Shown here piece after piece: positions 10,922 to 54,077 of a stretch of 64,000 bases of DNA (positions within the stretch are counted from its first letter, which is position 1; the number at the start of each line of letters is the position of its first letter). Origin of the DNA: Roseateles oligotrophus (lineage in GTDB: Bacteria; Pseudomonadota; Gammaproteobacteria; Burkholderiales; Burkholderiaceae_C); the NCBI RefSeq assembly GCF_025717515.1, contig NZ_JAJIRN010000011.1, forward strand, positions 62,001-126,000. Direction: 5' to 3'. The notes under the pieces are model-generated. The model saw only the letters and a list, made by a program, of their open reading frames with translations, was not told the DNA's origin and made no database searches. A program made the translations under genes and the position numbers.

Positions 10922-12858
10922 CGGCTGTGCGAAGTCAGCCTTGCCAGCGGCGAGGCCAGGCTGACGCCGGGCGCGGTGCGCCTGGCCTGCGGCGTGGCGG
11001 CGCTTGGATCGTCGGCGTTGCTGCTGCTGCGCTCTTCTAGGCCAAGCAATGGCGAGCTTGAGAGCGGGTCCAGCCCGTCCGCATTGCGCCGCATCGCCAC
11101 CCCGACGGCCAAGATGTCTATCACCAGCAGGTGCAGGATGCGGCTGACCATGGGCACATGGGTTTCGACATCTTCCGTGTGATCGACGATCAAGGCGACA
11201 TCGGCCTTGCGCGCCAGCGGCGATTGACCGGCCGTGATGGCGACCACGAAGGCGCCGCGCTGATGCGCTTTTTCCACCACCTCCAGCAACTCGGGCAGGC
11301 GGCCGCTATTGCTGATGACGACGGCGACGTCGCCAGGCTTCAAGACATTGGCCGCCAGCAACTGCAGGCGCGGGTCGGTGTAGGCCGAGCTGGGCATGCC
11401 AAAGCGCAAGAACTTGTACTCGGCGTCCTGTGCCACCACGCCGTAATGACCGAGCGCATAGAACTCGATCCGCCCGGCGTGCAACAGCAGTTCGACCGCG
11501 CGCGCCATCATGTCGCGGTTGAGTTGGCTGCGCACTTGCAAAATAGCCGAGGCGGTATTGCCCAGCACCTTGGCGCCCAGCTCCAGCATCGAATCGTCCA
11601 GATTGACTTGCGTATGCGTGACCGGCACGGTGCCGGTCAGGCCCGAGGCGAGGCGCAGCTTGAAGTCGGACAAGCCCTCGCAGCCCAGCGTGCGGCAAAA
11701 GCGAATGACGGTGGGCTGGCTGACCTGGGCGGCGCGGGCAATCGTCGCGATCGGGTCGTTCAGCGCCGAACGTGGGTGGGCCAGGATGTGCTCGGCCACG
11801 CGCAGCTCGGCCGGTGACAATTCGGCTCGAGCGCGCCTGATCTGCCCCAGCAAGCCCGCACCGGGCGCCGTCTGCAAGGTGCGCAACTGTGCCTCAAGAA
11901 TTGCCGAGGCGCCCTTGAAGGTGGCATGTTCGGCGGTGATGACAAAGGTCGGGATCGCTGCCACATAGGCGCTGAAACGCCCTTTGTCCTCAAAGCGCGT
12001 CCTGAAGCAAGAGTGCTCGAAATATTCGCCCAGCTTGGGCACAATGCCGCCGCCGATATAGATGCCGCCAAAGGCGCCCAGCGTCACCGCCAAGTCGGCC
12101 GCGGCCGTACCCAGAACGGCGCAAAAAACCTCCAGCGTTTCCTCGCACAAGGGGTCGCGCTTCTCGAGTGCTCGTTGGGTGATTTCGGGCGCTTGAATGC
12201 TTTCGGCCGACTGCCCGGCGCGCTCGGCCAGCGCGCGGTAGATCAACTCCAGGCCGGGGCCTGACAACAAACGCTCGAACGACACATGCTCGAACTGTTT
12301 CATGGCAAAGCGCAGCACCGCGATTTCACGCTCGTCACGGGGCGCAAAGGCGGTGTGACCGCCCTCGGTGCCCAGTGCCACCCAGGCATCACCCGCCGGG
12401 ATCAGGCCGGAAAGCCCCAGGCCGGTGCCTGAGCCCAGCAGTCCTATCACGGCGGGGCTGCGAGCCTGACCGCCGCCGACTTGCTGTACTTCGTTGGCAT
12501 TGAGTCGTGGCAACGCCATCGCCAAGGCCGTGAAGTCATTCACCACCACCAAGGTGTCGAATTTCAGGCGCTGGCGCATTTCTTCGATCGAGAACTGCCA
12601 GTGGTAATTGGTCATGCGAACCAGGTCATCTTCGACCGGGTAAGCGATCGCTATTGCCGCATGCTCGATAGCGGTGCTGGCGCTCATGCCGGTCAGGTTG
12701 GCCAAATAGGCGCTGACGGTGGCATGGAAGTCGGCGTAGTCGGCGCAGCGCAGCGAGGCAATCTGGCTGAACTCGCCGGGGCTGATTTCAAGCGCAAAAC
12801 GTGCGTAAGTGCCACCGATGTCGGCAATCAGGCGCGGGCTGTCAAAGGTCGAGGGCAT
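10918..12858 (-). CDS. Bifunctional glucokinase / RpiR-family regulator (Glk-HexR fusion)
   Basis: This 646-residue fusion protein has three parts. Residues 1-325 are a bacterial glucokinase: ADIGGTYARFAL (phosphate loop), NDFTAL with catalytic D108, GSGTGLGLS and EGGHTAFAP. Residues ~335-410 are an RpiR helix-turn-helix (RVAEHILAHPRSAL, VSQPTVIRFCRTLG). Residues ~455-590 are a SIS sugar-phosphate-binding domain (FYALGHYGVVAQDA, ISNSGRLPELLEVVE). The DNA-binding and SIS halves correspond to HexR, which in other proteobacteria senses KDPG and represses sugar catabolism genes. Fusion to Glk is known in Burkholderiales. The ATG at 12858 gives the usual N-terminus; an upstream TTG is less likely. 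A perfect candidate operator lies about 160 bases upstream, suggesting autoregulation. Confidence 0.92.
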   Translation of the reverse strand: MPSTFDSPRLIADIGGTYARFALEISPGEFSQIASLRCADYADFHATVSAYLANLTGMSASTAIEHAAIAIAYPVEDDLVRMTNYHWQFSIEEMRQRLKFDTLVVVNDFTALAMALPRLNANEVQQVGGGQARSPAVIGLLGSGTGLGLSGLIPAGDAWVALGTEGGHTAFAPRDEREIAVLRFAMKQFEHVSFERLLSGPGLELIYRALAERAGQSAESIQAPEITQRALEKRDPLCEETLEVFCAVLGTAAADLAVTLGAFGGIYIGGGIVPKLGEYFEHSCFRTRFEDKGRFSAYVAAIPTFVITAEHATFKGASAILEAQLRTLQTAPGAGLLGQIRRARAELSPAELRVAEHILAHPRSALNDPIATIARAAQVSQPTVIRFCRTLGCEGLSDFKLRLASGLTGTVPVTHTQVNLDDSMLELGAKVLGNTASAILQVRSQLNRDMMARAVELLLHAGRIEFYALGHYGVVAQDAEYKFLRFGMPSSAYTDPRLQLLAANVLKPGDVAVVISNSGRLPELLEVVEKAHQRGAFVVAITAGQSPLARKADVALIVDHTEDVETHVPMVSRILHLLVIDILAVGVAMRRNADGLDPLSSSPLLGLEERSSSNADDPSAATPQARRTAPGVSLASPLARLTSHSR

Positions 12859-13342
12859 GGCTGAATTGGCAGGGCTGTATGTGTGAGGCCGCAAGGCCTG
12901 GGCTAGCGCCGCATTATGGGGCTGTCATCGCCCTCGGGACTGCGGGTCTATCCCTTTGAAGCGAAGCGGTCGGGTGGTGATTGAGCGGCGGTCGAGGGGT
13001 GATTTTCACGTCGAAATGTAGTGTGACTACATTTTGTGAGGGTAAATCAACTCTTGATCTGATGCGTCAATGCAGCTTGATTTCATTGTGTGCTTATCGA
13101 TTTTTAAAGGCGCGATGTGAAATTGAGGCGATTCGGGAAAGACGCTATTGCGTAGATGATGTAGTTTTGTTACCTTACGGTCAACGAAATAGTTGTAGTG
13201 CTTGGTGGTGGTCTGTTTGCTGCCAAGGTCAATATCAACTTGAGGCGAGCCTGTGCCGCCTCAGGTCTTTCGAGTCGAGAACAATCGTGCGAGCAAATTC
13301 TTTCTGTGGTCGGTCCCTGTTGTTGTCCTTGTGCGAGGTGGC
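12859..13342. other. Divergent promoter region between glk-hexR and the second glucokinase gene
   Basis: This ~480-base region is AT-richer than its surroundings from 13000 on and contains no supported gene. It carries the perfect palindrome at 13017-13031 and a weaker TGTAGT-TTT-GTTACC at 13160-13174, plus a lone TGTAGT at 13194-13199. It should contain promoters for both flanking genes. Confidence 0.65.
13017..13031. promoter_or_regulatory. Perfect HexR-like operator TGTAGT-GTG-ACTACA
   Basis: This is a flawless 6-3-6 inverted repeat in the divergent region between glk-hexR and the second glk. It matches the general form reported for HexR sites (TGTAnT-W3-AnTACA). It lies 158 bases from the hexR fusion start and 311 bases from the second glk start. 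Confidence 0.72.
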
Positions 13343-14362
13343 ATGAGCGCCAGGAACTACCCTTGTTTGGTGGCTGACATTGGCGGCAGCAATGCGCGCT
13401 TTGGCTGGGTGGCCGCGCGCGGCGCCGAGGTCATGCATATTGCGGTGATGCCGGTATCGGAGCATGCCGGTCCGGTGGCGGCGGTGCAGGCCTATTTGCA
13501 GGGGCTGCGGCCGCTGCTGGCGCAAGCCGGACTTGAGTCAATAGTGCCTCGGCGGGCTGCATTTGCGGTGGCCACGGCGGTGGCGGGGGACCGGGTCGAG
13601 TTGACCAATGGGCATTGGAGCTTTTCGCGCGCCGAGGTGCAGTGCTCCCTGGGCTTGGAGTCCTTGCTGGTCTTGAATGATTTCGAGGCGCTGGCCTTGT
13701 CTTTGCCTAAATTGCAGGCCGGTCAGTTGCGGCAATGGTGCGCGTCTACCGGTGTGCCGGGGCAAGGCGTATCCGCTAGTGCCAACACGCTGGCGGTGAT
13801 CGGGCCGGGCACCGGTTTGGGCGTGGCCGGGGTGGTGTTTGCCAATGGCGAATGGGTGGCGCTGCCGGGTGAAGGTGGGCATATGACCTTGGCGGCCGCC
13901 GACGACTTCGAGAGCGAGTTGCTTGCGCATATGCGGCGCAACTATGAGCATGTGTCTGCCGAGCGTTTTCTGTCGGGTATCGGCCTACCGCTGTTGCATG
14001 GCTCGGTGGTGGCGGTGCGCGGTGCGCCGAGTGCGCAAGCACTCAGCGCGGAGTTGATTGTTGAGCGCGGTCTGTCGGGCGAGGATGCGATCTGCGCCGA
14101 AACCCTGGATGTGTTTTGTGCCTTGCTTGGCGGCTTTGCTGGCAATGTGGCGCTGACATTGGGTGCGCGCGGCGGTGTCTATATCGGCGGCGGCATCGTG
14201 CCGCGTTTGGGCGAGCGCTTTTTTGCGTCGCGCTTCCGCGAGCGCTTCGAGGCCAAGGGGCGTTTTCGAGACTATCTCGCCGCTATTCCGACCGCTTTGA
14301 TCACCGACACCCTGGCGGCGCTGAGTGGTGCAGCCTTGGCGCTTGAGCAGCAGCACGAGTGA
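13343..14362 (+). CDS. glk: Glucokinase (second copy)
   Basis: This 339-residue cytoplasmic ATP-dependent glucokinase converts glucose to glucose-6-phosphate. It shows LVADIGGSNARFGW (phosphate 1), ELTNGHWSFS, VLNDFEAL with catalytic D113, GPGTGLGVAG, GEGGHMTLA and the C-terminal GARGGVYIGGGIVPRLGE. It is a stand-alone paralogue of the kinase half of the adjacent fusion; both keep the active-site Asp. The ATG at 13343 is chosen because it starts directly before the phosphate loop with GAGG five bases upstream; an ATG at 13253 in frame would add a 30-residue tail with no family counterpart. It likely phosphorylates glucose freed by MalZ and MalQ. Confidence 0.93.
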   Translation: MSARNYPCLVADIGGSNARFGWVAARGAEVMHIAVMPVSEHAGPVAAVQAYLQGLRPLLAQAGLESIVPRRAAFAVATAVAGDRVELTNGHWSFSRAEVQCSLGLESLLVLNDFEALALSLPKLQAGQLRQWCASTGVPGQGVSASANTLAVIGPGTGLGVAGVVFANGEWVALPGEGGHMTLAAADDFESELLAHMRRNYEHVSAERFLSGIGLPLLHGSVVAVRGAPSAQALSAELIVERGLSGEDAICAETLDVFCALLGGFAGNVALTLGARGGVYIGGGIVPRLGERFFASRFRERFEAKGRFRDYLAAIPTALITDTLAALSGAALALEQQHE

Positions 14363-40119: not shown

Positions 40120-42858
40120 TTAACGGAAGGAGTAGCTCAGGCTGGCGTAGAAATTGCGGCCACGCGGGTCCGTGTAGGTCGGGTCATAGGTGGCCAGGAA
40201 GTAGTAGCCTTGGTTGGAGAACGGCGGCTGCTTGTCGAACAGATTCTGCACGCCAACGCGCAGCTTCGCGGCCTTGTTGATGGCCCAGAAGCCCGACATG
40301 TCCCACAACGAATAGGCCTGCACATTGCGCGCCGGCAGCAACTGGCTGGTGTTGGGGTTGAAGGCGGTGTTGTGGTCGGTGTAGCCCGAGTAATAGGTGT
40401 TGCCCAGGGTCAGGCCAAAGGCGCCGATGTCCCAATCCGCCGACAGCCGGTGACGCCATTTCTGGATCACTTGGTCGCTCAGGAAGCGCCCGGCATTGCT
40501 CTGGAAAGGCTCGCCGGCGCCGAACTGGCGCTCGTACTTCAGCACATAGGTGCCGTTTGCATTGACCCTGAACTGCCCGGCTTCACCGGCGTTGAAACGG
40601 TAGTTGACATCCAAATCAATGCCCGAGGTGCGCAGCTCGCCTTGGTTTTCCTTCTTCAACAAAATGGTGTCGATGAACTCGCCGAACTCGTCGCGCTTGA
40701 CGTAGCCCTTTTCGTACTTGGACAAATTGCCCAGAATCACCTGCTCGGACAAATCGCTGATCACATCGGTTTTGTTGATCACCCAGTAGTCAATGCTGGC
40801 GCTCAGTTCACGCACCGGCTCCAGCACCAGGCCCAGCGAGAATTGTTTGGACTTCTCGGGCTTGAGCTTGTCATTGCTGCGGCGCTCGACCCGCCATTGG
40901 TCGGTGCAATCGGCCACCGAGAAGCCTTGCGAGACGCAGCCCGGGTCGGTCAAGAAGGCCGAGCTGGAGCCAAACGAGGTCGGGCGGGTCAGCTCATTGA
41001 TGCTGGGCGCGCGAAAACCGGTGCCGGCCGAGCCGCGCAGCATCAGCTGCTTGCTTGGCTGCCAGCGCGCGCCGAGCTTGGGGTTGAAGGTGTTGCCCAC
41101 GCCGCTGTAGTCATCAAAGCGTGCGGCCAGTTGGACCTCCAACTCCTTGGTGAAGGGGGCGTTCAATTCGCCGTAGACGGCGGCCACATTGCGGCTGTTT
41201 TTGCTGGCCGGTGGCGAGTCACCGCGCGAGCTGCGGTCGCCCTGGATATTGTTAGTTAGTAGCAGGGCCGAAGGATTGAACTCGGCCTCCTCGCGGCGGA
41301 ATTCGGCGCCGAAGGCCGCGCCCAGCGCGCCTCCGCCCAGCTGCATCAGATCGCCGCTGAATTTGGCGTCCACGGTCGTCGTTGTGCCTTTGGAACTGCG
41401 CGCGGTGTCTTGCACCTTGATGCTGCCCAGCAGGTCTTGGCCGGCTTGGGGCGATTTGCCGAAGGGGTTGATCTGGCCGGCGCGCACGCCCGCGACGAAT
41501 TTGTCATACAGGAAGTAGCCGTCCTTCAGCGCGTCGTCGGTCTTGTTGACGGCGCGGTTCAGCGCGATGTCGTAATCCCAAGTTCCCAGTGAGCCGCTGA
41601 CGCCCGCGACGATGCGCTCGGCATCGCTGCTGACCTCATTGCTGCGGTTGCCGCCCTCGGTGACGCGCTGGCGTACGTCGACATTGCCACCGAAGGGCAG
41701 CGGTTTGGGCAAGAAGGGGTTGATTGCGGCCGTCGGCACGCCGGTGATCTCGATCGGATTCGGGCTGGCCACATACAGCGTCTTGGTCTTGCTTTTGAGG
41801 ACCTCGGCAAACAGCTGTGTTTCGTTATTGAGCTGGAACACACCGCGGCCCAAAAAGGCGGCCTTGTCCGACTCGGGGTAGAGCTCGGTGTCCTGCATAT
41901 AGTCAAAGCTGCAGGCCTCGGACAGATTGTCTTTGGCGTAGACGGTGGCCGGCGGGTTGCAAGCCGGCGCATACAAGTTGATGGTGCGCTGCGTAAAGGG
42001 TTTGCCGTTGACGGTGAAGCCGGCCGCGTTGAGCGCATCGAGCTGGACCTTGCGCGGAGCGGACTTGCTCGCCAGGCGGATATTGCCGGGGAAGGTGCGG
42101 CTGGACATATAGAACGGCAAGGTGGTCGCCAGCGGCCGATCCTGCAAGAATTCGCGCTCGGTCGAACGCAGACCGCCGAGCTTTTGCACATCGATGACGC
42201 CGAACACATTGAAGCGATCTTTGGCCAGATCGCCGAAGCCGCCGCCTATCGAGGCGGCCGTTTTTTCGGCGCCGCCTTCTTGCGTGCGCGAGGCGTAGAC
42301 ATTGATGTCGGCACCTCGGTAGTCCTTGCGGGTGATGAAGTTGATGACGCCGCCGATCGCGTCGGTGCCGTAAATGGCGGAGGCGCCGTCTTTCAGAATT
42401 TCGACCCGCTCGATCGCGCCGGCCGGGATGTTGTTCAGGTCCACGCCCGAGTTGTCGCCGGGCGAAGCGAAGTTGGCCATGCGCCGGCCGTTCAACAGGA
42501 TCAAGGTGCTGGACACGCCGATACCGCGCAGATTGGCGCCGTTGAAGCCGCGCTGGCCGCCGGTGCTGTCGGTGATGCTGGCGCCGTCGGTCAGGCCGGC
42601 GGTGTTGCCGCTGATCGAGCGCATGATTTCGGCCGCCGTGGTGGCGCCGGTCTTGTCGATGTCGGCGCGCTTCAAGGTCTGCACCGGCAGCGCGGTTTCG
42701 CCCTCGATGCGCTTGATGCTGGTGCCGGTGATGTCAACGCGCTCGAGTTTGGCTTCTTGTGCCAGGGCTTGCCAGCCGACGCTGCTGGCGACCAGCAAAG
42801 TGGCCGCTTGGGCCAAGCGCTTGAGCTTGAAGGGATGCGGCATGCGGGAGTGGGTCAT
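40120..42858 (-). CDS. TonB-dependent receptor, probably for cyanophycin fragments
   Basis: This 912-residue outer-membrane receptor has a signal peptide (KRLAQAATLLVASSVGWQALA-QEA) and TonB box region LERVDITGTSIKR. The plug includes LRGIGVSSTLILLNGRRMANF, VDLNNIPAGAIERVEILKDGASAIYGTDAIGGVINFITRKDYRG. The barrel ends in RNFYASLSYSFR. This plug type is shared by many peptide/siderophore/polymer receptors and does not fix the substrate. It is divergent from a secreted cyanophycinase across a 315-base region, so uptake of cyanophycin-derived peptides is the simplest reading. Two starts are possible (42858 and 42843). No exbB, exbD or tonB is nearby. Confidence 0.85.
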   Translation of the reverse strand: MTHSRMPHPFKLKRLAQAATLLVASSVGWQALAQEAKLERVDITGTSIKRIEGETALPVQTLKRADIDKTGATTAAEIMRSISGNTAGLTDGASITDSTGGQRGFNGANLRGIGVSSTLILLNGRRMANFASPGDNSGVDLNNIPAGAIERVEILKDGASAIYGTDAIGGVINFITRKDYRGADINVYASRTQEGGAEKTAASIGGGFGDLAKDRFNVFGVIDVQKLGGLRSTEREFLQDRPLATTLPFYMSSRTFPGNIRLASKSAPRKVQLDALNAAGFTVNGKPFTQRTINLYAPACNPPATVYAKDNLSEACSFDYMQDTELYPESDKAAFLGRGVFQLNNETQLFAEVLKSKTKTLYVASPNPIEITGVPTAAINPFLPKPLPFGGNVDVRQRVTEGGNRSNEVSSDAERIVAGVSGSLGTWDYDIALNRAVNKTDDALKDGYFLYDKFVAGVRAGQINPFGKSPQAGQDLLGSIKVQDTARSSKGTTTTVDAKFSGDLMQLGGGALGAAFGAEFRREEAEFNPSALLLTNNIQGDRSSRGDSPPASKNSRNVAAVYGELNAPFTKELEVQLAARFDDYSGVGNTFNPKLGARWQPSKQLMLRGSAGTGFRAPSINELTRPTSFGSSSAFLTDPGCVSQGFSVADCTDQWRVERRSNDKLKPEKSKQFSLGLVLEPVRELSASIDYWVINKTDVISDLSEQVILGNLSKYEKGYVKRDEFGEFIDTILLKKENQGELRTSGIDLDVNYRFNAGEAGQFRVNANGTYVLKYERQFGAGEPFQSNAGRFLSDQVIQKWRHRLSADWDIGAFGLTLGNTYYSGYTDHNTAFNPNTSQLLPARNVQAYSLWDMSGFWAINKAAKLRVGVQNLFDKQPPFSNQGYYFLATYDPTYTDPRGRNFYASLSYSFR

Positions 42859-43173
42859 GATGAAGTGGCCTCGTTTGACTGATGGGAAGGAAGTAGGTGA
42901 CGCAGGGGAATCGGAGGCCGTTGCGCGCTTGCCGAGGGGTCTGCGCTATTGGCCTTGGATGCACTCTAGGAGCGCGCCGCATGACTTGCCTATGGGGTTT
43001 TGGTGGCCCGGTCGCTTGTGCGCAAGTCCATGTCGCTTGGCCGCAAACCCTCGATGAACAGGCACAACAGCGCTTGCAACGATGCGACATGCACTTGCGT
43101 TTTGGGGCCAAACAGGGCCTGTCTGGGGCCATACCCGCTGGCGATTGCGGGCCGGCGCTGACAGACTGGCGCC
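42859..43173. other. Divergent control region, TonB receptor / cyanophycinase
   Basis: This is a 315-base gap with no gene. It contains a 16-base sequence and its inverted near-copy (43021-43036 and 43084-43099, one mismatch), and several GGGGCC/GGCCC runs. These are good candidates for operator sites of the locus regulator. There is no HexR-like motif. Confidence 0.6.
43021..43099. repeat. 16-base inverted repeat in the cyanophycin control region
   Basis: CGCAAGTCCATGTCGC at 43021-43036 and GCGACATGCACTTGCG at 43084-43099 are inverted copies with a single mismatch, 47 bases apart. The 63-base centre spacing is six helical turns, as expected of paired operator sites. Confidence 0.65.
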
Positions 43174-44448
43174 ATGCAAATCAATCTACTCATCAAGGCG
43201 GCCGCTGCGCTGCTGCTGGCGGCGGCCCAGCCGGCTTCGGCCTCGGCCGCGCCAATTGCGGGCCCCGTCCATTTGGCCGGTACGGCCATCATCATTGGCG
43301 GTGCGCTGAAGTACGACAACGATGTGGTCTGGAAGCGCATCGTCGATGCGGCCGGTGGGCCCGGTGCTCGCTTTGCGGTGTTCGCCACCGCGGCTGCCAA
43401 GCCGGAGCGCAGCGCGGCACAAATCGTCGCCGCCTTGAACGCGCAGGGTGCCCGCGCCGAGGCGATCCCTGTCGCACCCCGGTGGGACGGCGTCGATCTG
43501 CAAGCCAACTTGAATGATGCGGCGCTGCTGGCCAAGGTGGCCGGCGCGCAAGGCGTGTTCTTCTCGGGCGGTGCGCAGGAGTTGATCGTCGATACCTTGC
43601 AGCCAAGCGGTGAGCCGACCGCGATGCTCAAGGCGATCTGGTCGGTGTTCAATCGCGGTGGTGTGGTGGCGGGCACCAGCGCGGGCGCGGCCATCATGAG
43701 CACGACGATGTTCCGCGACGCGCAGGATGCACTGCAGGTGATGAAGGGCGATCTGCGCCGCGGCAAGGAGATCGACCGAGGCCTGGGCTTTACCGGGCCG
43801 CATTTATTTGTTGATCAGCATTTTCTCAAACGCGGCCGGATTGGTCGCATGCTGCCGCTGATGCAGGCCGAGGGCTACAAGCTCGGCTTGGGCGTCGAGG
43901 AAAACAGCGCCGCCTTGCTGCGCGGCGACGAGATGGAGGTGCTGGGTGCCAAGGGCGTGATGCTGGTCGATCTTGCTCAGGCCAGCACCGATCCCGGGCT
44001 GGCCGGCTTCAATCTGCGCAATGCCCAGCTCAGCTATTTGGAAAGCGGCGATAGGCATAACTTCACAAGCGGGCTGACCACGGTCTCTGCGCAAAAGCTT
44101 GCCGGCCACCTGATCGACCAGAAGGCAGCCGGCTTCCAGCCCTTTTTCAGCAATCAGCCCTTTATTCTGGATATCTTGGGTGACACGGCGATCGTCAATG
44201 CGATGAGTCATCTGCTCGACAGCCCGCATGCCGAGCTGCTGGGCCTGGCCTTCAACGGGCGCAGCCAAGGCAGCGACAACCGGCCCGACCTTGGCTTCGA
44301 GTTCCGTCTGCACAAGGGCGAGGGCAGCCGTGGCTGGTTCAGTGCAGCGGCCGGTGGCGAAAACTATACGGTGCTGCGCCTGCGCCTGGATGTGCTGCCG
44401 GTGGTGATCAAGAGGCCTTTCTATACGCCCTTGAACGGCTCGCGCTAA
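43174..44448 (+). CDS. Exported cyanophycinase (peptidase family S51)
   Basis: This 424-residue enzyme cleaves cyanophycin (multi-L-arginyl-poly-L-aspartate) to beta-Asp-Arg dipeptides. It has a signal peptide (LIKAAAALLLAAAQPASASA-AP), so it acts outside the cytoplasm. The S51 features are IIIGGALKYDN near 40, VFFSGGAQE at 128, the nucleophile S169 in GTSAGAA and VDQHFLKRGRIGRML around 210. In the last segment the DQHF and R-G-R residues match cyanophycinase rather than the aspartyl-dipeptidase PepE. The length agrees with extracellular CphE-type enzymes, which are longer than intracellular CphB. It begins the + strand operon of the locus. Confidence 0.88.
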   Translation: MQINLLIKAAAALLLAAAQPASASAAPIAGPVHLAGTAIIIGGALKYDNDVVWKRIVDAAGGPGARFAVFATAAAKPERSAAQIVAALNAQGARAEAIPVAPRWDGVDLQANLNDAALLAKVAGAQGVFFSGGAQELIVDTLQPSGEPTAMLKAIWSVFNRGGVVAGTSAGAAIMSTTMFRDAQDALQVMKGDLRRGKEIDRGLGFTGPHLFVDQHFLKRGRIGRMLPLMQAEGYKLGLGVEENSAALLRGDEMEVLGAKGVMLVDLAQASTDPGLAGFNLRNAQLSYLESGDRHNFTSGLTTVSAQKLAGHLIDQKAAGFQPFFSNQPFILDILGDTAIVNAMSHLLDSPHAELLGLAFNGRSQGSDNRPDLGFEFRLHKGEGSRGWFSAAAGGENYTVLRLRLDVLPVVIKRPFYTPLNGSR

Positions 44449-44467
44449 CTCCCTATTTACGCTGTGA

Positions 44468-44486
44468 CCCGGCCGTTCAGGCCGGG
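44468..44486 (+). other. GC-rich hairpin between cyanophycinase and the M14 gene
   Basis: CCCGGCC-GTTCA-GGCCGGG is a perfect 7-base stem with a 5-base loop, 20 bases after the cyanophycinase stop. No T-run follows, so it is not a standard terminator. It may stabilise or attenuate the message between the two genes. Confidence 0.45.
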
Positions 44487-44513
44487 CATGGTCAAGCTTT
44501 GACTGGAAACTTG

Positions 44514-45641
44514 ATGCAGACCCGATTGCACCCCTTGATGCCCGCCAGTGCGGGTACCGCCCGGCATGTGCGCAGTCTCCATTTCGGCCGCGCCGAGAGC
44601 GGCCGCAAGGCCTATATCCAGGCGTCACTGCATGCCGATGAAGTACCGCCGATGCTGGTGGCGCAGGCCTTGCGCGAGCGTTTGCTGGCGCTCGAGGCCG
44701 CTGGGCTGATCGCCGGTGAAATCGTGCTCTTGCCGATGGCCAATCCGATCGGCTTGTCGCAAGAGATGCAGGGCGTTTTATGCGGGCGCTTCGACATGAG
44801 CACCGGCATCAATTTCAATCGGAATTACCGCCATCTGAGCGCCGAGTTGATTCCTTTGCTTGAGCCCTTGCTGGGCGCCGATCCGCAGGAGAACCGGCGC
44901 CTGATTCGCACGACTTGCCTGGCCTTGCTGGCGGCCAAGCCGGCGCAGACCCAGACCGAAAACCTCAAGCTGATCTTGCAAACGCTGGCGATGGATGCCG
45001 ACATCGTGCTCGACCTGCACTGCGACACGCAGGCCGTTATGCATGTTTACACCGGCACGCCGCTGGCCGAGGCCGCCAAGCCTTTGGCTCGTCTGCTGGG
45101 TGCCCAGGCCTTGTTGCTGTCGCGGGCCTCGGGTGATGACCCGTTTGACGAAACCATCGCACGCATTTGGTGGGAGTTGGCCGAGCATTTCGGGCCCGGT
45201 CGGCCGGTGCCACTGGCTTGTTTTGCAGCCACGGTGGAGTTGCGCGGCGAGTTGCAGGTGGAGCCGGCTCTGGCCTTGCAGGATGCACGGGCCCTGCTGG
45301 AATTCTTGCGTCAGGCCGGGCACATCGACGGTCCCGTCGATGCGGATCTGGCGGCCTTGGCGCCGCTCTGCGAGGCCACTCCGCTGGAGGGTGTGGAGCC
45401 TATCACCGCGCCGCATAACGGCGTCTTGGTGTTCCGCAAGCAGCCGGGTGATTGGCTGAGCGCCGGCGAGGTGGTGGCCGAAGTCATTGATCCCTTGACC
45501 GATCAACGCAGCCTCTTGCAGACGACGGTGTCGGGCCGGCTTTTCGCTCGCGTGTCCCGGCCTTATGCCAGCGCCGGCATGCGCGTCTGCAAGGTGGCCG
45601 GCAGCGTGGCCTTTCGCAGCGGCAAGCTGCTCTCGCTCTGA
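44514..45641 (+). CDS. M14-type zinc amidohydrolase, candidate cyanophycin-dipeptide hydrolase
   Basis: This 375-residue protein belongs to the succinylglutamate desuccinylase/aspartoacylase (AstE/ASPA, M14-like) family. The zinc ligands are H40 and E43 (QASLHADEVPP) and H169 (IVLDLHCDT). The general base is E242 (ATVELRGE), and the arginine stretch NRNYRHLS is present. A C-terminal beta domain (biotinyl-like, HNGVLVFRKQPGDWLSAGEVVAEVIDP) is typical of the AstE-like subgroup. It lacks a signal peptide. Adjacent to a cyanophycinase, it most likely splits beta-Asp-Arg into Asp and Arg; from memory a zinc M14-like CphZ family does this. True succinylglutamate desuccinylase is the alternative, as AstA genes lie downstream. 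ATG 44514 is preferred to TTG 44499. Confidence 0.72.
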   Translation: MQTRLHPLMPASAGTARHVRSLHFGRAESGRKAYIQASLHADEVPPMLVAQALRERLLALEAAGLIAGEIVLLPMANPIGLSQEMQGVLCGRFDMSTGINFNRNYRHLSAELIPLLEPLLGADPQENRRLIRTTCLALLAAKPAQTQTENLKLILQTLAMDADIVLDLHCDTQAVMHVYTGTPLAEAAKPLARLLGAQALLLSRASGDDPFDETIARIWWELAEHFGPGRPVPLACFAATVELRGELQVEPALALQDARALLEFLRQAGHIDGPVDADLAALAPLCEATPLEGVEPITAPHNGVLVFRKQPGDWLSAGEVVAEVIDPLTDQRSLLQTTVSGRLFARVSRPYASAGMRVCKVAGSVAFRSGKLLSL

Positions 45642-45665
45642 ACCTTTTTCTAGCCAATTCCGCTC

Positions 45666-47057
45666 ATGTCAAAACTGAAATTCCCCAACACCTTTGTGCT
45701 CTTGTTCAGCCTGTTGGCGTTGATCGCCTTGGCGACCTGGTTCGTGCCCGGCGGCAAATACGAAACACAGTTGATCGACGGCAAGACCGTCATCAAGGCA
45801 GACTCCTTTCATCATGTCGCCGGCAATCCGCAAGGGCCCGCCGCGCTGATGATGGCCCCTATCAAGGGCTTTGTCGAAGCGGCGCTGATCATCGGTTTTG
45901 TGCTGATCGTCGGCGGCGCCTTCTCGGTGCTGCAGCGCACCGAGGCGATCGATTCGATGATCAAGTCGGTGGCCAAAGCGCATACCCATTCCGCCTGGGT
46001 GCGGGTGGCCATCATCCCGGTGTTCGTGGCCATGTTTTCGCTCGGCGGTGCGACCTTCGGCATGGCCGAGGAGGCGATCCCTTTTGTGTTGATCTTCATC
46101 CCCTTGGCCTTGGCACTCAAGTACGACAGCATCGTTGGCGTGGCGATTCCCTTTGTAGGTTCGCAAATCGGCTTTGCCACCGCTTTTTTGAATCCCTTCA
46201 ATGTCGGCGTGGCGCAGAGCATTGCCGGCGTGCCGATGTTCTCAGGCATTGGCTATCGGCTGATTTGCTGGGCGATTGCCACCACGCTGACGATCGCGTT
46301 TTTGATGTGGTACGCGGCTCGTATCAAGAGCCGGCCTGAGCTGAGCCCTTGTTTCGAATCGGACCAGGAGAAGCGTAAACACTTGAAGACGGCCGAGTTC
46401 GAGAGCTTCGCCGGCATGACGGCGCGACACAAGCTGGTGCTGAGCATGTTCGCCTTCACGCTGGCGGTGATGATCTTCGGCGTGATCAAGTTCGGCTGGT
46501 ACATCGAAGAGATCGCGGCGCTGTTTTTGCTGATGTCCATCATGGTCGGCTTGGTCGGGCGCTTGGATGCGGAAGAGTTTGTGGCCAGCTTCATGGCCGG
46601 CGCCAAGGATCTGGTGGGTACCGCCTTGGTGATCGCCTTGGCCAAGGCCACCGTGGTGCTGATGCGCGACGGCCACATCATCGACACCATGCTGCATGCG
46701 CTGGTGCCGCTGGTGGAATCGAGCAACCCTGTCTTCTCTGCACAGAAGATGTTCCTGATCCAGTCGGTGATCAATTTCTTCATTCACTCCGGTACCGGCC
46801 AAGCCGCGCTGACCATGCCCATCATGGCGCCGCTGGCCGATCTGGTTGGCGTGAGCCGACAGACCGCCATCCTGGCCTTCCAGTTCGGCGAATTGACCAC
46901 GCCGGTGATCCCGACCTCGGGCATCACGGTCGGCGTTTTGGCCCTGGCCGGCATCCCCTGGACGAAATGGGCGCGCTGGATGATCCCGCTGCAACTGATG
47001 TATTTGCTGATGGCGCTGGCCTTGCTGGCCGTGCCCTCGATGATCAACTGGCAATGA
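45666..47057 (+). CDS. YfcC-family inner-membrane permease
   Basis: This 463-residue membrane protein has about 12 hydrophobic segments. VPGGKYE near 30, the SVLQRTEAIDSMIKS stretch, FSLGGATFGMAEEAIPFV and FIHSGTGQAALTMPIMAPLADL are typical of YfcC/ArcD-like C4-dicarboxylate-or-arginine carriers (COG1288). The substrate is not proven; basic amino acids or a dipeptide are suggested by position. It sits 25 bases after the M14 gene and is followed by the regulator. With a secreted cyanophycinase and cytoplasmic M14 enzyme it is the natural candidate for inner-membrane uptake of beta-Asp-Arg or arginine. Confidence 0.83.
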   Translation: MSKLKFPNTFVLLFSLLALIALATWFVPGGKYETQLIDGKTVIKADSFHHVAGNPQGPAALMMAPIKGFVEAALIIGFVLIVGGAFSVLQRTEAIDSMIKSVAKAHTHSAWVRVAIIPVFVAMFSLGGATFGMAEEAIPFVLIFIPLALALKYDSIVGVAIPFVGSQIGFATAFLNPFNVGVAQSIAGVPMFSGIGYRLICWAIATTLTIAFLMWYAARIKSRPELSPCFESDQEKRKHLKTAEFESFAGMTARHKLVLSMFAFTLAVMIFGVIKFGWYIEEIAALFLLMSIMVGLVGRLDAEEFVASFMAGAKDLVGTALVIALAKATVVLMRDGHIIDTMLHALVPLVESSNPVFSAQKMFLIQSVINFFIHSGTGQAALTMPIMAPLADLVGVSRQTAILAFQFGELTTPVIPTSGITVGVLALAGIPWTKWARWMIPLQLMYLLMALALLAVPSMINWQ

Positions 47058-47093
47058 GCGAAGTCTGCTCGCGGTCTGAATTACAGTGCAGCG

Positions 47094-48110
47094 GTGAATA
47101 GCCTCGCCCCTACCGCTGCCGAGACCGAGCCAAGCGCGACCGAGCTGCGGCGCTGTGGCCTGCTCTTGCTGCCGGGCGCTTCGCTGCTGGCGCTGGCCGG
47201 CGTGCTGGAGTCGCTGCAGGCGGTCAATGAATTGCAGGCAGATGCGCGTTATGTGCCCGAGCTGGGGTCGCCCGATGGCGGGTCGGTCAGCTGCGGCGGT
47301 TTGGTTTTTCAGACCCTGGCCTTGGCGGAGTCGGCGGCTTGGTATGCGATCTTTGTGCTCTGCGGCGAAGGCGCGCGGCCGGGCTCGGCCTTGCTGGCTT
47401 GGCTGGCTCGGCAAGCAGCCGCAGGCGTGGCGCTGGGCGGTGTCGACGGCGGCAGCGCCGTGCTGGCCGAGGCCGGCCTACTTGGCGCCGAGCGTGCCAC
47501 CGTCAACGCGCATCTGGCGGAGGCGCTGCAGGACGAATACCCTGATGTGGTCTGGAGCGGCAATGTCTGGGAGATCAATGCCGACGCCTCGCGCCTGAGC
47601 TGTGCGGGCGGCAGCGCCAGTCTTGATTTGATGATCGCCTGGCTGGGCCGCAGTCACGGCGAACGACTGGCGCAAGACCTGACCCTCAAGCTGGGGCTGG
47701 AGCGCGCCCGTGGCCGTGATGAGCGCCAGCGCCGCCCGGTGGCCGAGCAGCGCGGCGGCAGCCCCAAGCTGGCCGAGGCGCTCAGTCTGATGGAGGCCAA
47801 CTTGGCCGAGCCGCTGCCGACCGAGGATGTGGCGCGTTTGGTGGGCGTCTCGCGCCGGCAGTTGGAGCGCTTGTTCAAACAGCATCTGGACGCCTTGCCC
47901 TCGCGCTATTACCTGGAGCTGCGCCTGAACCGGGCGCGGCGCTTGTTGCAACAAAGCGGCCAATCGATTTTGCAGATTGGCCTGTCTTGCGGGTTTTCCT
48001 CCGGCCCGCATTTTTCCAATGCCTACAAGGCACATTTTGACAAAACGCCGCGCGACGAGCGCAGCCAGCGCGCCATCGCCTGGCGCCGACCTGCTGGAGA
48101 CCCCTCATGA
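47094..48110 (+). CDS. DJ-1/PfpI plus AraC-type regulator (GlxA/ArgR family)
   Basis: This 338-residue regulator has an N-terminal DJ-1/PfpI amidase-like domain (about 20-190) and C-terminal AraC DNA-binding domain (about 225-325: LPTEDVARLVGVSRRQLERLFKQHL, ILQIGLSCGFSSGPHFSNAYKAHF). It uses a GTG start at 47094, 36 bases after the permease. ArgR of Pseudomonas, which controls the arginine succinyltransferase (aru) operon, has this architecture. It overlaps the first astA-like gene by four bases. A role as arginine-responsive activator of this locus is likely; the inverted repeat at 43021/43084 is a possible target. Confidence 0.85.
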   Translation: MNSLAPTAAETEPSATELRRCGLLLLPGASLLALAGVLESLQAVNELQADARYVPELGSPDGGSVSCGGLVFQTLALAESAAWYAIFVLCGEGARPGSALLAWLARQAAAGVALGGVDGGSAVLAEAGLLGAERATVNAHLAEALQDEYPDVVWSGNVWEINADASRLSCAGGSASLDLMIAWLGRSHGERLAQDLTLKLGLERARGRDERQRRPVAEQRGGSPKLAEALSLMEANLAEPLPTEDVARLVGVSRRQLERLFKQHLDALPSRYYLELRLNRARRLLQQSGQSILQIGLSCGFSSGPHFSNAYKAHFDKTPRDERSQRAIAWRRPAGDPS

Positions 48111-49165
48111 ACCCCCGAGATTTGCTGTTGCGCCCGGTGGCGCTGGCCGACCTGCCGGCGCTGGAGCGGATTGCGGCCGCCAGCGAGCATGGCATCAGCT
48201 CCTTGCCTAACGACCAAGCCAAGCTGCGTGCGCGCATCGAACGCTCACTCGATGCCTTTGCCAGCCTGGATGACGCCAGCGGTGAGGAAACCTATCTCTT
48301 CGTGCTCGAGGACCTTGCCCGCGCCGAGGTTGTGGGCTGCAGCGGGATTGCGGCCAGCGCCGGTTTTCATGATCGCTTCTACAGCTATCGGAACGAGTTC
48401 GTCGTGCACGCCAGCGCGGCTTTGGGCGTCAGCAACCGCCTGCACACCTTGCATCTGTGCCATGACCTGAGCGGCTACACGCTCTTGACCTCTTTCTACA
48501 TCGAGCCCGCCTATGCCCAAGGCCCGGCGCCGCAACTGCTCTCGCGGGCCAGGCTGCTCTTCATTCAGCAGTTCGCCGAGCGTTTCAATCAGCGCATCGC
48601 CGCCGAGAACCCCGGCCTCGCCGATCAAGAAGGCCAAAGCCCATTCTGGGATGCGGTCGGGCGGCGCTTCTTTGCGATGGACTATCCGCAGGCCGAAGCC
48701 CTGACGGGTGGCCGCAACAAGGCCTTCATTGCCGACCTGATGCCGCATTCGCCGATCTATGTGGCCTTGCTGCCCGAGGCCGCGCAATGGGCGATCGGCC
48801 AGTTGCATCCGGTCGGCGAGTTGCCGTTTTCCATCCTGCAAGAAGAGGGCTTTGACGCGGATACCTATATCGACATCTTTGACGGCGGCCCGACCGTGGA
48901 ATGCAGTTTGGGCCTGTTGCGCAGCGTTCGACATGCGCACCGGCTGACGGTGAATGCAGATGCTCTGGCGCTGGGTATGCCGGCCTGGCATCTGGCGGTC
49001 AACTGCGAACGCAATGATTTTCGGGCGATCTTGGTCGAGCTGGCCGAGTCGGCCCGGTTTGTTCTGCCCAGCGATGAGGCGGCCACGCGCTTGGGTTTGG
49101 TCGAGGGCGCCGATCTGCTGGTGACCCCGCTTTGGCCCGAATCGACCGAGAGGAGCCGGCCATGA
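48107..49165 (+). CDS. astA: Arginine/ornithine N-succinyltransferase, main subunit (AstA/AruF-like)
   Basis: This 352-residue acyltransferase would succinylate L-arginine with succinyl-CoA, the first step of the AST pathway. RPVALADLPALERIA starts the domain; HDLSGYTLLTSFYIEPAY, QEGQSPFWDAVGRRFFAMDY, NKAFIADLMPHSPIYVALLP and EEGFDADTYIDIFDGGPTVEC are AstA signatures. Pseudomonas uses two homologous subunits (AruF, AruG); a second homologue follows here with an ATGA overlap. Downstream enzymes AstB, AstC and AstD are absent from the window. It is in the same operon as the regulator. Its presence supports arginine breakdown as the destination of cyanophycin. Confidence 0.9.
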   Translation: MNPRDLLLRPVALADLPALERIAAASEHGISSLPNDQAKLRARIERSLDAFASLDDASGEETYLFVLEDLARAEVVGCSGIAASAGFHDRFYSYRNEFVVHASAALGVSNRLHTLHLCHDLSGYTLLTSFYIEPAYAQGPAPQLLSRARLLFIQQFAERFNQRIAAENPGLADQEGQSPFWDAVGRRFFAMDYPQAEALTGGRNKAFIADLMPHSPIYVALLPEAAQWAIGQLHPVGELPFSILQEEGFDADTYIDIFDGGPTVECSLGLLRSVRHAHRLTVNADALALGMPAWHLAVNCERNDFRAILVELAESARFVLPSDEAATRLGLVEGADLLVTPLWPESTERSRP

Positions 49166-49938
49166 CAGCCTCTGAAAATGAGCATCGGCTCTGCGTGCGT
49201 GGCCAGCAGGCCGGTGATCTGGCGTCAATGAGTGGCTGGCTCGGCCAGACCGGCGTCGCGCCCGACCTCGGCGGGGGCGAGGGCGAATGGTTGATCCTGG
49301 CCGATGCGGCATCGGGCGCGCCGCTGGCCTGCGCTCGCTTGGTCGAGCAGCTGGGCATGCGCACACCACGCTTCAGCTACCATGTCGGCCGCGTGGTGCA
49401 TGCGGCCGCGGAGTTAGGCTTGTTCCGCACTCAGACCACCTTGCTGCTGGGCAATGACCACAGCGGCGAGAGCGAGCTGGCCGACTTGGCCTGCGCACCC
49501 GGCCTGCCGGCCGAGGTTCAAACCGCCTATTTGACGCGACTGATCGAGGCGGCCTTGCAGCGCATTCAGGCGCAAGCGCCACGCTTTGGCGAGCGTTTGA
49601 TCGTGGAGCTGGCGGGGCCGCTCGATGAGCGGGGTCAGGCACCGTTCTGGCAGGGCCTGGGCCTACATTTCTATGCTGGCGACCGGCAAGCCGCGCAGGC
49701 GAAATTTGGCGACGCTTGGCGCAGTCATTTGGCGGCCTTGCTGCCGCGCCAGACCTTGTACCTGTCGTTTCTGAGCGAAGCCGCGCAGACGGCGATGGGA
49801 CAGGTCGGGGCGGCAGGTCAGTCCGCGGCCAAGGCCTTGGCGGCCTGTGGATTTGCCTCGTCCCAGCATGTGCGCGTCGATGACGGCGGGCCGGTGTGGG
49901 AGTTGCGGCTGCCGCCCAAGTCCGAAATCAGTCGCTGA
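49162..49938 (+). CDS. AstA-like second subunit, short and divergent
   Basis: This 258-residue protein is homologous to AstA but about 90 residues shorter. It keeps LLLGNDHSGES (compare HDLSGYT), RLIVELAGPLDERGQAPFWQGLGLHFYAG, LAALLPRQTLYLSFLSEAAQ and a final DDGGPVWEL. It ends where AstA would continue for some 60 residues. Several motif positions differ from its neighbour, so it could be a non-catalytic partner, as AruF/AruG are a heteromer. ATG 49162 overlaps the astA stop (ATGA) and has GAGAGGAG upstream. A degenerate duplicate is the alternative. Confidence 0.75.
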   Translation: MTASENEHRLCVRGQQAGDLASMSGWLGQTGVAPDLGGGEGEWLILADAASGAPLACARLVEQLGMRTPRFSYHVGRVVHAAAELGLFRTQTTLLLGNDHSGESELADLACAPGLPAEVQTAYLTRLIEAALQRIQAQAPRFGERLIVELAGPLDERGQAPFWQGLGLHFYAGDRQAAQAKFGDAWRSHLAALLPRQTLYLSFLSEAAQTAMGQVGAAGQSAAKALAACGFASSQHVRVDDGGPVWELRLPPKSEISR

Positions 49939-52712: not shown

Positions 52713-54077
52713 TCAGCTGCGTTTGACGCGGCGAGCGAAGAAGAACAGCAAGCCGAGCGAGGTCAGCAGCAGCGTGGATGGCTCGGGCACCGCGACGGTG
52801 GCGCGGGCGTAATAGATGTCCAGGCCCTTGGTCAGGTCCGGGTTGTCGCCGGTCGAGTTGGAGGAGTCGGCCCAGGCGGTGACCAGATTGCCGGCATAGA
52901 AGTCGAGCGCGATGTAGTCGCCGAACTCGTTGCCGTTGTTGATATTGCTGGTGCGGCCGTCCGACATGCCTTGGCTGATCTTGAAGTTCTTGGCCCAGGT
53001 CGTGCCACCGTCCATGCTGACCGTGCCCCAGACTTCGACCATATTGTTGCCGACAGAGTTGCGTGCGTCGTACCAGACCGAGGCCAGGTAGCCGGTGGTT
53101 TGGTCAACTGCAAGGCGGCCAAAAAATTGCGAATTACTGCCCAGGTCGTCATTCAAACGCACTTCGCTGCTGAAGGTCGCGCCGTTGTCGCTGGAGCGGC
53201 GAATGACGATATTGGTGTCGTTGGTCGTCGGGTTGGCGGCCTGCGTGTACAGCATATAGAGGTCATTGTTGTGCACGCCACCGGAGGAGTCGAACTGCAA
53301 TGAGACTTGCGTGTCAATGGTGCGGCTGGGCTGCGCCGGGATTGGGCGCCAGCCTCCCACTTGAGTGACGATGGTGGCGCCGTTGACGAAACTTGCGCCC
53401 GCACCCAGGCCGTCGGCGTCATAGCGCACCGTCAAATTGTCCGGACCGGCAGTGCCGGCCGAGGTCATCACCGTGAAAGCGGCGCGGCCGTTATTGCCAA
53501 TCGCTGTTGAGCCGAAATTGCCGGCGCCTTGATTGGTCTGAGTCGTGAAAGCACCGGTGCTGCCGAAGCCGCTGGAGCTGGCGTTGACAATGCGCGACTG
53601 ACCATTCACCGAATCACGGAACATCAAGTCGGTGGTGCCGGCGACGCGGCCCGGGCCGACCGCCATCTCGGGGTGGTCGGCGCCGCCACCGGCAATTGCC
53701 GCGTGAAAGCCATAGGTGGCGCCCCCATCGGTGCTGCGGGCGACATGGGTTTGCTGGTTCACTTGGTAAGACAAGAAGATATTGCCGAAGCTGTCGGCGG
53801 CCATGCCGCTGTCGTAGCCACCGGGTACGGCATAGGCGCTATTGGCCCAGCTGGCGCCGCCGTTGGCGCTGAACTTGTTGATCATATTGCCGCCGCCATT
53901 GGACGAAATAGTCACCAGGTTCGAGTTGATGCGGCTGATGGCGATGGCGGTTTCGGACTGCGAGCCCGATTGCTTGGTCACGTTGATGTTCTGGCCAACC
54001 GTGATGACCTGGGCCTGTGCCGTAGAGAGCATGGCTGCCAAGGCGATAGGGGTGAAGAGAGCTTTAGAGAGACGCAC
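52713..54077 (-). CDS. PEP-CTERM-sorted protein with Asp-box (BNR) repeats
   Basis: This 454-residue exported protein has a signal peptide (FTPIALAAMLSTAQA-QV). At least three Asp-box motifs are visible (STDGGATY, SSDNGATF, SMDGGTTW), indicating a sialidase-like six-bladed propeller. The C-terminus is VPEPSTLLLTSLGLLFFFARRVKRS, a PEP-CTERM signal: PEP motif, hydrophobic helix and basic tail. It should be processed by an exosortase, which is not in the window. Its enzymatic activity, if any, is unknown: Asp-box propellers include both sialidases and non-catalytic binding proteins. It is low in Cys and rich in Asn, Ser and Gly, typical of surface proteins. Confidence 0.85.
   Translation of the reverse strand: MRLSKALFTPIALAAMLSTAQAQVITVGQNINVTKQSGSQSETAIAISRINSNLVTISSNGGGNMINKFSANGGASWANSAYAVPGGYDSGMAADSFGNIFLSYQVNQQTHVARSTDGGATYGFHAAIAGGGADHPEMAVGPGRVAGTTDLMFRDSVNGQSRIVNASSSGFGSTGAFTTQTNQGAGNFGSTAIGNNGRAAFTVMTSAGTAGPDNLTVRYDADGLGAGASFVNGATIVTQVGGWRPIPAQPSRTIDTQVSLQFDSSGGVHNNDLYMLYTQAANPTTNDTNIVIRRSSDNGATFSSEVRLNDDLGSNSQFFGRLAVDQTTGYLASVWYDARNSVGNNMVEVWGTVSMDGGTTWAKNFKISQGMSDGRTSNINNGNEFGDYIALDFYAGNLVTAWADSSNSTGDNPDLTKGLDIYYARATVAVPEPSTLLLTSLGLLFFFARRVKRS

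Follow-up and report, generated by a model that had tools for sequence, protein, structure and literature searches.

A candidate ArgR-controlled locus for cyanophycin utilisation, with a divergent TonB-dependent receptor, in Roseateles oligotrophus

Cyanophycin is a fixed-nitrogen store of cyanobacteria. Loci for its utilisation and the dipeptide hydrolase CphZ are already known (passages of PMC10206079), as is a receptor gene beside a cyanophycinase gene (passages of PMC3400609), and the name and regulation of the Pseudomonas aotJQMOP-argR operon have been reported (passages of PMC12341379). Here, we describe a locus in a window of 64,000 nucleotides of Roseateles oligotrophus (assembly GCF_025717515.1, contig NZ_JAJIRN010000011.1, positions 62,001 to 126,000), which lies on contig 3, the genome amounting to 5.76 Mb. 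In this locus, a gene for a TonB-dependent receptor runs divergently to an operon that begins with the cyanophycinase-like gene cphE. Very probably, it is an ArgR-controlled cyanophycin-utilisation locus, serving digestion of the polymer outside the cell, import of the products and their use. The novelty appears to lie in the arrangement of known families, in a swapped transporter and in an unexplained last enzyme; a partial literature search found no paper on an ARG-box-controlled receptor/cphE pair, on the carrier exchange or on an AruFG pair tied to such a locus. The features, in window coordinates, are:

40120..42858, minus strand: TonB-dependent outer-membrane receptor of the cyanophycinase-linked clade; 912 residues, Plug and barrel domains
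42859..43173, no strand: regulatory region between the divergent receptor and cphE genes; blocks conserved with four relatives, tandem ARG boxes
43010..43046, plus strand: predicted tandem ARG box 1; TGTCGCN8AA, 5-base spacer, repeat; 1 mismatch
43074..43110, minus strand: predicted tandem ARG box 2; same pattern on the opposite strand, 2 mismatches
43174..44448, plus strand: CphE-like S51 cyanophycinase with signal-peptide-like N-terminus; 424 residues, Peptidase_S51, S169, DQH at 214-216
44514..45641, plus strand: CphZ-like M14 zinc enzyme, predicted beta-Asp-Arg dipeptide hydrolase; 375 residues from ATG, AstE_AspA_cat
45666..47057, plus strand: YfcC-like inner-membrane carrier of the DcuC family, where relatives have the Aot ATP-binding cassette (ABC) transporter
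47094..48110, plus strand: ArgR-like regulator with AraC-type helix-turn-helix (HTH_18)
48107..49165, plus strand: AruF-like arginine/ornithine succinyltransferase alpha subunit, AstA family
49162..49938, plus strand: AruG-like short partner subunit, AstA family, without the conserved His of AruF

An earlier sequence-only reading had proposed here a secreted cyanophycinase, an M14 hydrolase, a permease, a regulator and two AstA-like subunits, closely spaced and with a divergent receptor. All these genes were recovered at the listed positions and in this order, with the expected families, from the open reading frame list and from Pfam and NCBIfam searches; from cphE on, they are separated by 65, 24 and 36 bases, followed by two 4-base overlaps. 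CphE contains Peptidase_S51 (PF03575, 33.0 versus a cut-off of 23.9 bits), has the fold of solved cyanophycinases and starts with a hydrophobic signal-like stretch. Its proposed nucleophile S169 and the DQH motif (D214, Q215, H216) were invariant in 28 aligned sequences, the window's own included. Fold and residues support its assignment as a cyanophycinase, predicted to release beta-Asp-Arg from cyanophycin. The zinc ligands noted in the M14 enzyme, H40, E43, H169 and E242, are likewise intact, being invariant in 25 aligned sequences, and the protein shows the fold, zinc ligands and catalytic Glu of CphZ. An identity as AstE is disfavoured by this likeness of fold and by the NCBIfam search, in which neither AstE nor any other family matched at E 0.001 or better. 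The suggestion that this enzyme hydrolyses beta-Asp-Arg is thus supported as far as its CphZ-like rather than AstE-like sequence can tell, and specificity for beta-Asp-Arg is predicted.

In order to compare the gene order across relatives, as that reading had suggested, we used three sets of loci. A cphE search gave matches in 34 of 119 genomes, that of R. oligotrophus included, from which 40 stretches were read by tblastn, 4 of them taken from its own genome and the other 36 from 29 of the remaining 33 genomes (G002, G014, G017 and G056 were omitted). The counts for named loci refer to the best 80 of 110 loci found, a set that overlaps the tblastn stretches in species. The third set comprises all 34 loci of the AstA alpha subunit in 31 genomes with AstA, namely the window's own and 33 others, seven of which came from the tblastn stretches and 26 from newly added ones. 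In the tblastn stretches and among the named loci, the arrangement recurs in other species, either as type A, with the receptor divergent to cphE-cphZ-carrier-argR-aruF-aruG, or as type B, with the receptor divergent to cphE alone; in several genomes both types stand in tandem. The receptor itself shows Plug and barrel domains above cut-off (81.5 and 164.9 bits) and, after a signal-like stretch, the sequence VDITG, which we take to be TonB-box-like. In a tree that took from other genomes only receptors linked to cphE, the 72 linked receptors formed one clade with a support of 1.0, excluding 12 other receptors of the R. oligotrophus genome (those with an open frame of at least 500 residues in the fetched stretches). 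Of the 80 named loci, 68 include a receptor; among the 12 receptor-less ones, three have cphE at a contig edge (L120, L161, L165). The receptor stands after aruG in L175 and L178, and in L188 it does not adjoin cphE. These results support a conserved linkage of receptor and carrier with the cphE locus, and the two proteins may together take up the products of cyanophycin.

The carrier belongs to the DcuC family (PF03606, 334 bits). Since it stays below the YfcC equivalog cut-off (NF008611, 379.2 versus 500 bits), we call it YfcC-like, so that of the YfcC-type permease described earlier the family stands and the equivalog does not; no meaningful sequence match was obtained among solved structures. 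In sister loci, cphZ is flanked by genes for a substrate-binding protein, for two permeases and for an ATPase, recognised by their likeness to an operon on contig 52 of the R. oligotrophus genome. The two kinds of transporter replace each other: of the named loci, 36 contain cphZ, and among these a YfcC-like carrier is found in 12, ABC permeases in 21 and both in none, while three have neither, namely L133, L153 (where the ATPase is present) and L134 (where the contig ends). The 33 other AstA loci gave the same picture, with 11 carriers, 14 sets of permeases, none with both and eight with neither, L208 and L220 among them at contig edges. In a CphZ tree, 12 sequences linked to a YfcC-like carrier cluster together, and that of Niveibacterium (L126), whose carrier is 76% identical to the window's and is located after aruG, falls among the ABC-linked sequences. 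From this position, the pairing with the carrier appears to have arisen at least twice. The exchange is the best evidence that carrier and ABC transporter move the same substrate. We presume that AotO of Pseudomonas is a CphZ as well.

The regulator had been described as a DJ-1/AraC protein; its AraC-type domain (HTH_18) was found, whereas the DJ-1-like N-terminus is that reading's label only, and its best NCBIfam model, GbdR, stays below cut-off. In Pseudomonas, the ArgR site is TGTCGCN6GNAA, repeated with 5 bp between the copies, and in P. alloputida the spacing of the ARG box is variable (passages of PMC10963909). The 315-base gap between receptor and cphE contains two tandem TGTCGCN8AA elements with 5-base spacing, placed back to back on opposite strands, which are the sole matches at up to three mismatches in the window. 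All four half-sites of the two boxes carry the consensus G, so that the tandem TGTCGCN6GNAA pattern, with its 5-base spacing, stands at the target promoter. The pattern was first recognised in an alignment of this gap with those of four relatives and then tested. It was found in 31 of 71 receptor/cphE gaps versus 5 of 710 Markov controls. Spacers of 4, 5 and 6 bases gave 13, 31 and 6 of the 71 gaps, and the reversed pattern gave none at spacer 5 and four at spacer 4. Of five rotated motifs, GTCGCT, overlapping the true motif by a one-base shift, gave 25, and the other four gave 0 to 4.

The site follows the regulator gene. Where this gene lies downstream, all 24 gaps (23 named and the window's own) contain the site; where it does not, 47 gaps, the site occurs in none of the 36 with enough downstream sequence visible. 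The remaining 11 gaps end too soon; seven have the site (L117, L132, L134, L146, L154, L164, L185) and four do not (L131, L140, L157, L168). Of 30 loci that were found through AstA and have cphE, 25 carry a box in the 900 bases preceding this gene. In three others of the 30, L206, L207 and L210, and likewise in L175 and L178 of the named loci, the box is missing there, and one with three mismatches stands by the moved receptor; in L205, which has no cphE, such a box lies between receptor and argR. With an 18-base pattern at up to five mismatches, no site was found at L041 (the second cphE pair of this genome) or at L194 (arginase), and at L042 (the Aot operon) none was better than four mismatches, for which reason the regulator looks local. 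A sigma-70 promoter scan of 42700-43300 gave no match. These data support a predicted site common to receptor and operon that would be bound by the ArgR-like regulator. In a k-mer search, the motif AGTCTAG/CTAGACT was found in 30 of the 38 receptor/cphE gaps that have no cphZ and argR linked to them; in these type B gaps, it is perhaps the site of another regulator.

In the mechanism that we propose, exported CphE would cut cyanophycin outside the cell or at its surface to beta-Asp-Arg dipeptides, and the receptor would let the dipeptide or a short oligomer through the outer membrane. Import of beta-Asp-Arg through the inner membrane would be the task of the YfcC-like carrier, standing in for the Aot ABC transporter, and CphZ could then cleave the dipeptide to Asp and Arg. 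Arginine would then activate the ArgR-like regulator, switching on receptor and operon together via the two back-to-back boxes, and AruFG would most likely work on ornithine made by the arginase of this genome.

This last step departs from the earlier proposal that AruFG completes the normal arginine succinyltransferase pathway, which we consider very improbable. The two AstA-like subunits are there, as had been said (PF04958, 368.1 bits for AruF and 136.5 for AruG), and in favour of that pathway, AruF exceeds the AOST subfamily cut-off (369.8 versus 284.35) and matches the solved alpha chain 1yle at E 5e-95. However, AstB was not found in this genome, and above cut-off it was found in none of 299 family genomes, 31 of them with AstA, in a search with positive E. 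coli and Caulobacter controls; one short match stayed below cut-off. The best AstD candidate of this genome reaches 280 versus a cut-off of 579.3 bits, a result that counts against any complete lower pathway too. The full AST pathway is disfavoured on the grounds of AstB and AstD, no search having been aimed at AstC or AstE, and the closing arginine succinylation of the earlier reading is not supported as a route. AruG, of 258 residues, is the short partner: a His invariant in 24 AruF sequences is missing from 22 of 23 AruG. AstA-family genes occur in this genome only at the window locus, and 33 of the 34 AstA loci lie beside argR, with cphE in the stretch of 31. Those without cphE are L208 and L220, at contig edges, and L205, which has receptor, argR, AruFG and Aot/CphZ genes; the 33 other loci have cphZ in 29 cases and the receptor in 28. 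Within this sample of the family, AruFG is almost confined to the cyanophycin/CphZ locus, AstB being absent. Because AstB is missing, because AruFG is able to succinylate ornithine (passages of PMC9007349), as is the Acinetobacter AstA paralogue AstO (passages of PMC12375414), and because an arginase is found above cut-off in this genome, we prefer succinylation by AruFG of arginase-made ornithine, as a proposal by analogy that is still unproven.

Several observations weigh against a dedicated, ArgR-controlled locus for foreign cyanophycin. CphE, with 124.4 bits, remains just below the equivalog cut-off of 126.6 (TIGR02069) and is for this reason named cyanophycinase-like, and its C-terminal part, about 310-424, was unmatched, in searches that did not take this region alone. 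Genome-wide, tandem box matches at up to two mismatches number 10, as do those of the reversed control, although both consensus G residues are found only in the window's two sites. Two of the loci found through AstA that have argR and cphE, L211 (with no receptor seen) and L221, show no box at up to three mismatches in front of cphE. The related sequences are not independent, and kinship inflates the co-occurrence counts. Nine of the 80 named loci with upstream sequence at least partly visible have cphE and no receptor (L122, L123, L124, L138, L152, L176, L177, L181, L189). This agrees with the idea that the ligand of the receptor is a different one, either a siderophore or a peptide rich in arginine, and that the receptor merely shares a regulatory region with cphE, all the more as porins could pass a dipeptide and as NCBIfam, and also the PDB matches, place it only among general TonB receptors, siderophore-receptor names being well below cut-offs. 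We nevertheless regard this as unlikely, given that the receptor is kept with cphE through tandem duplication and in a second paralogous pair, stays in the locus with its own ARG box when moved behind aruG, and belongs to a single clade. The genome also encodes cyanophycin synthetases (CphA1 and CphA'), so that it may make the polymer itself, and alternative routes are offered by an Aot-type operon with another CphZ and by one more pair of cphE and receptor. The locus could then mobilise the cell's own cyanophycin, either from lysed kin or in the periplasm, with the transporters recovering leaked dipeptides; the third S51 protein scores only 77.7 versus 126.6 bits, and no clear intracellular cyanophycinase was seen. 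This seems quite unlikely, as the synthesis genes are on another contig, CphA1 is a cytoplasmic enzyme, and the signal-like start of CphE and the outer-membrane family of the receptor argue for polymer outside the cell. Of the scavenging route first proposed, use of outside polymer is retained and its being the sole use is not.

The synthetase genes, CphA1 and the shorter CphA', are adjacent on contig 53 (L043:6108-10935). The Aot-like ABC operon on contig 52 (L042:7066-11215) includes a CphZ 48% identical to that of the window, and no argR or aruFG match was found in the 19 kb stretch around it. The pair on contig 12 (L041:8270-12714) is of type B, without cphZ or ARG box; its CphE paralogue reaches 134.9 versus 126.6 bits in TIGR02069, and after the pair, at 12647-13840, comes an AmpH/class C beta-lactamase-like serine hydrolase that stays below cut-offs. 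Three S51 genes were found in this genome, the third coding for a cyanophycinase-like protein of 402 residues on contig 54 (L044:9057-10265). Similar small proteins, presumably NADPH-dependent FMN reductase look-alikes, adjoin both kinds of cphE locus (L041:7730-8278 and L133:13171-13791). In the window, the protein at 52713-54077 ends in a VPEPSTLLL stretch, which we take to be a PEP-CTERM-like sorting tail.

The locus offers a molecular handle on who harvests cyanophycin, consisting of a gene order usable as a marker, an operator and a dipeptide carrier, both predicted, and a receptor clade with a testable ligand. It also poses a biochemical question, since the AruFG of a whole family stands almost solely here and the textbook next enzyme was not found. 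More tentatively, and as a combination in which we place rather less than even confidence, the receptor may be a dedicated outer-membrane importer of products of an isopeptide polymer, the YfcC-like carrier may be a secondary transporter of beta-Asp-Arg, having taken over from the ABC transporter on at least two occasions, and AruFG may be part of an undescribed branch of arginase and ornithine succinylation or active on another arginine derivative.

Among described systems, the one of Ben Hania and co-workers is also a locus for cyanophycin utilisation, which, in the passages of PMC10206079, likewise joins a cyanophycinase, an isoaspartyl dipeptidase and a transporter for scavenging, but uses IadA, of another enzyme family than CphZ. 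CphZ of Acinetobacter baylyi (8EIN and 8EIP, the latter its E251A mutant; reference 49 of PMC10206079) is alike in fold, length and position of the catalytic Glu, with 37% identity, whereas here the enzyme is the operon-mate of an exported-type cyanophycinase, a YfcC-like carrier and AruFG. The extracellular CphE of Pseudomonas (PMC3235067), likened by description and not by sequence, is also a leader-peptide enzyme, encoded by a gene of 1260 bp. A link of TonB receptor and cyanophycinase was predicted as early as 2012 in Citromicrobium sp. JLT1363 (PMC3400609), so that this link is less new than first claimed, even though its conservation stands; that case is a neighbourhood prediction, and the passages concerned mention neither CphZ nor a regulator or operator. 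AstO is an AstA-family enzyme as well, with ornithine use only proposed here; it adjoins a transaminase gene, in an organism that also has a full ast operon (passages of PMC12375414). Finally, the aotJQMOP-argR operon of Pseudomonas (passages of PMC12341379) shares, with AotO presumed to be a CphZ, the order of cphZ followed by an ArgR-type regulator, and the sister loci keep its ABC order, whereas in R. oligotrophus a YfcC-like carrier stands for the ABC transporter, cphE and the receptor are added, and AruFG is attached.

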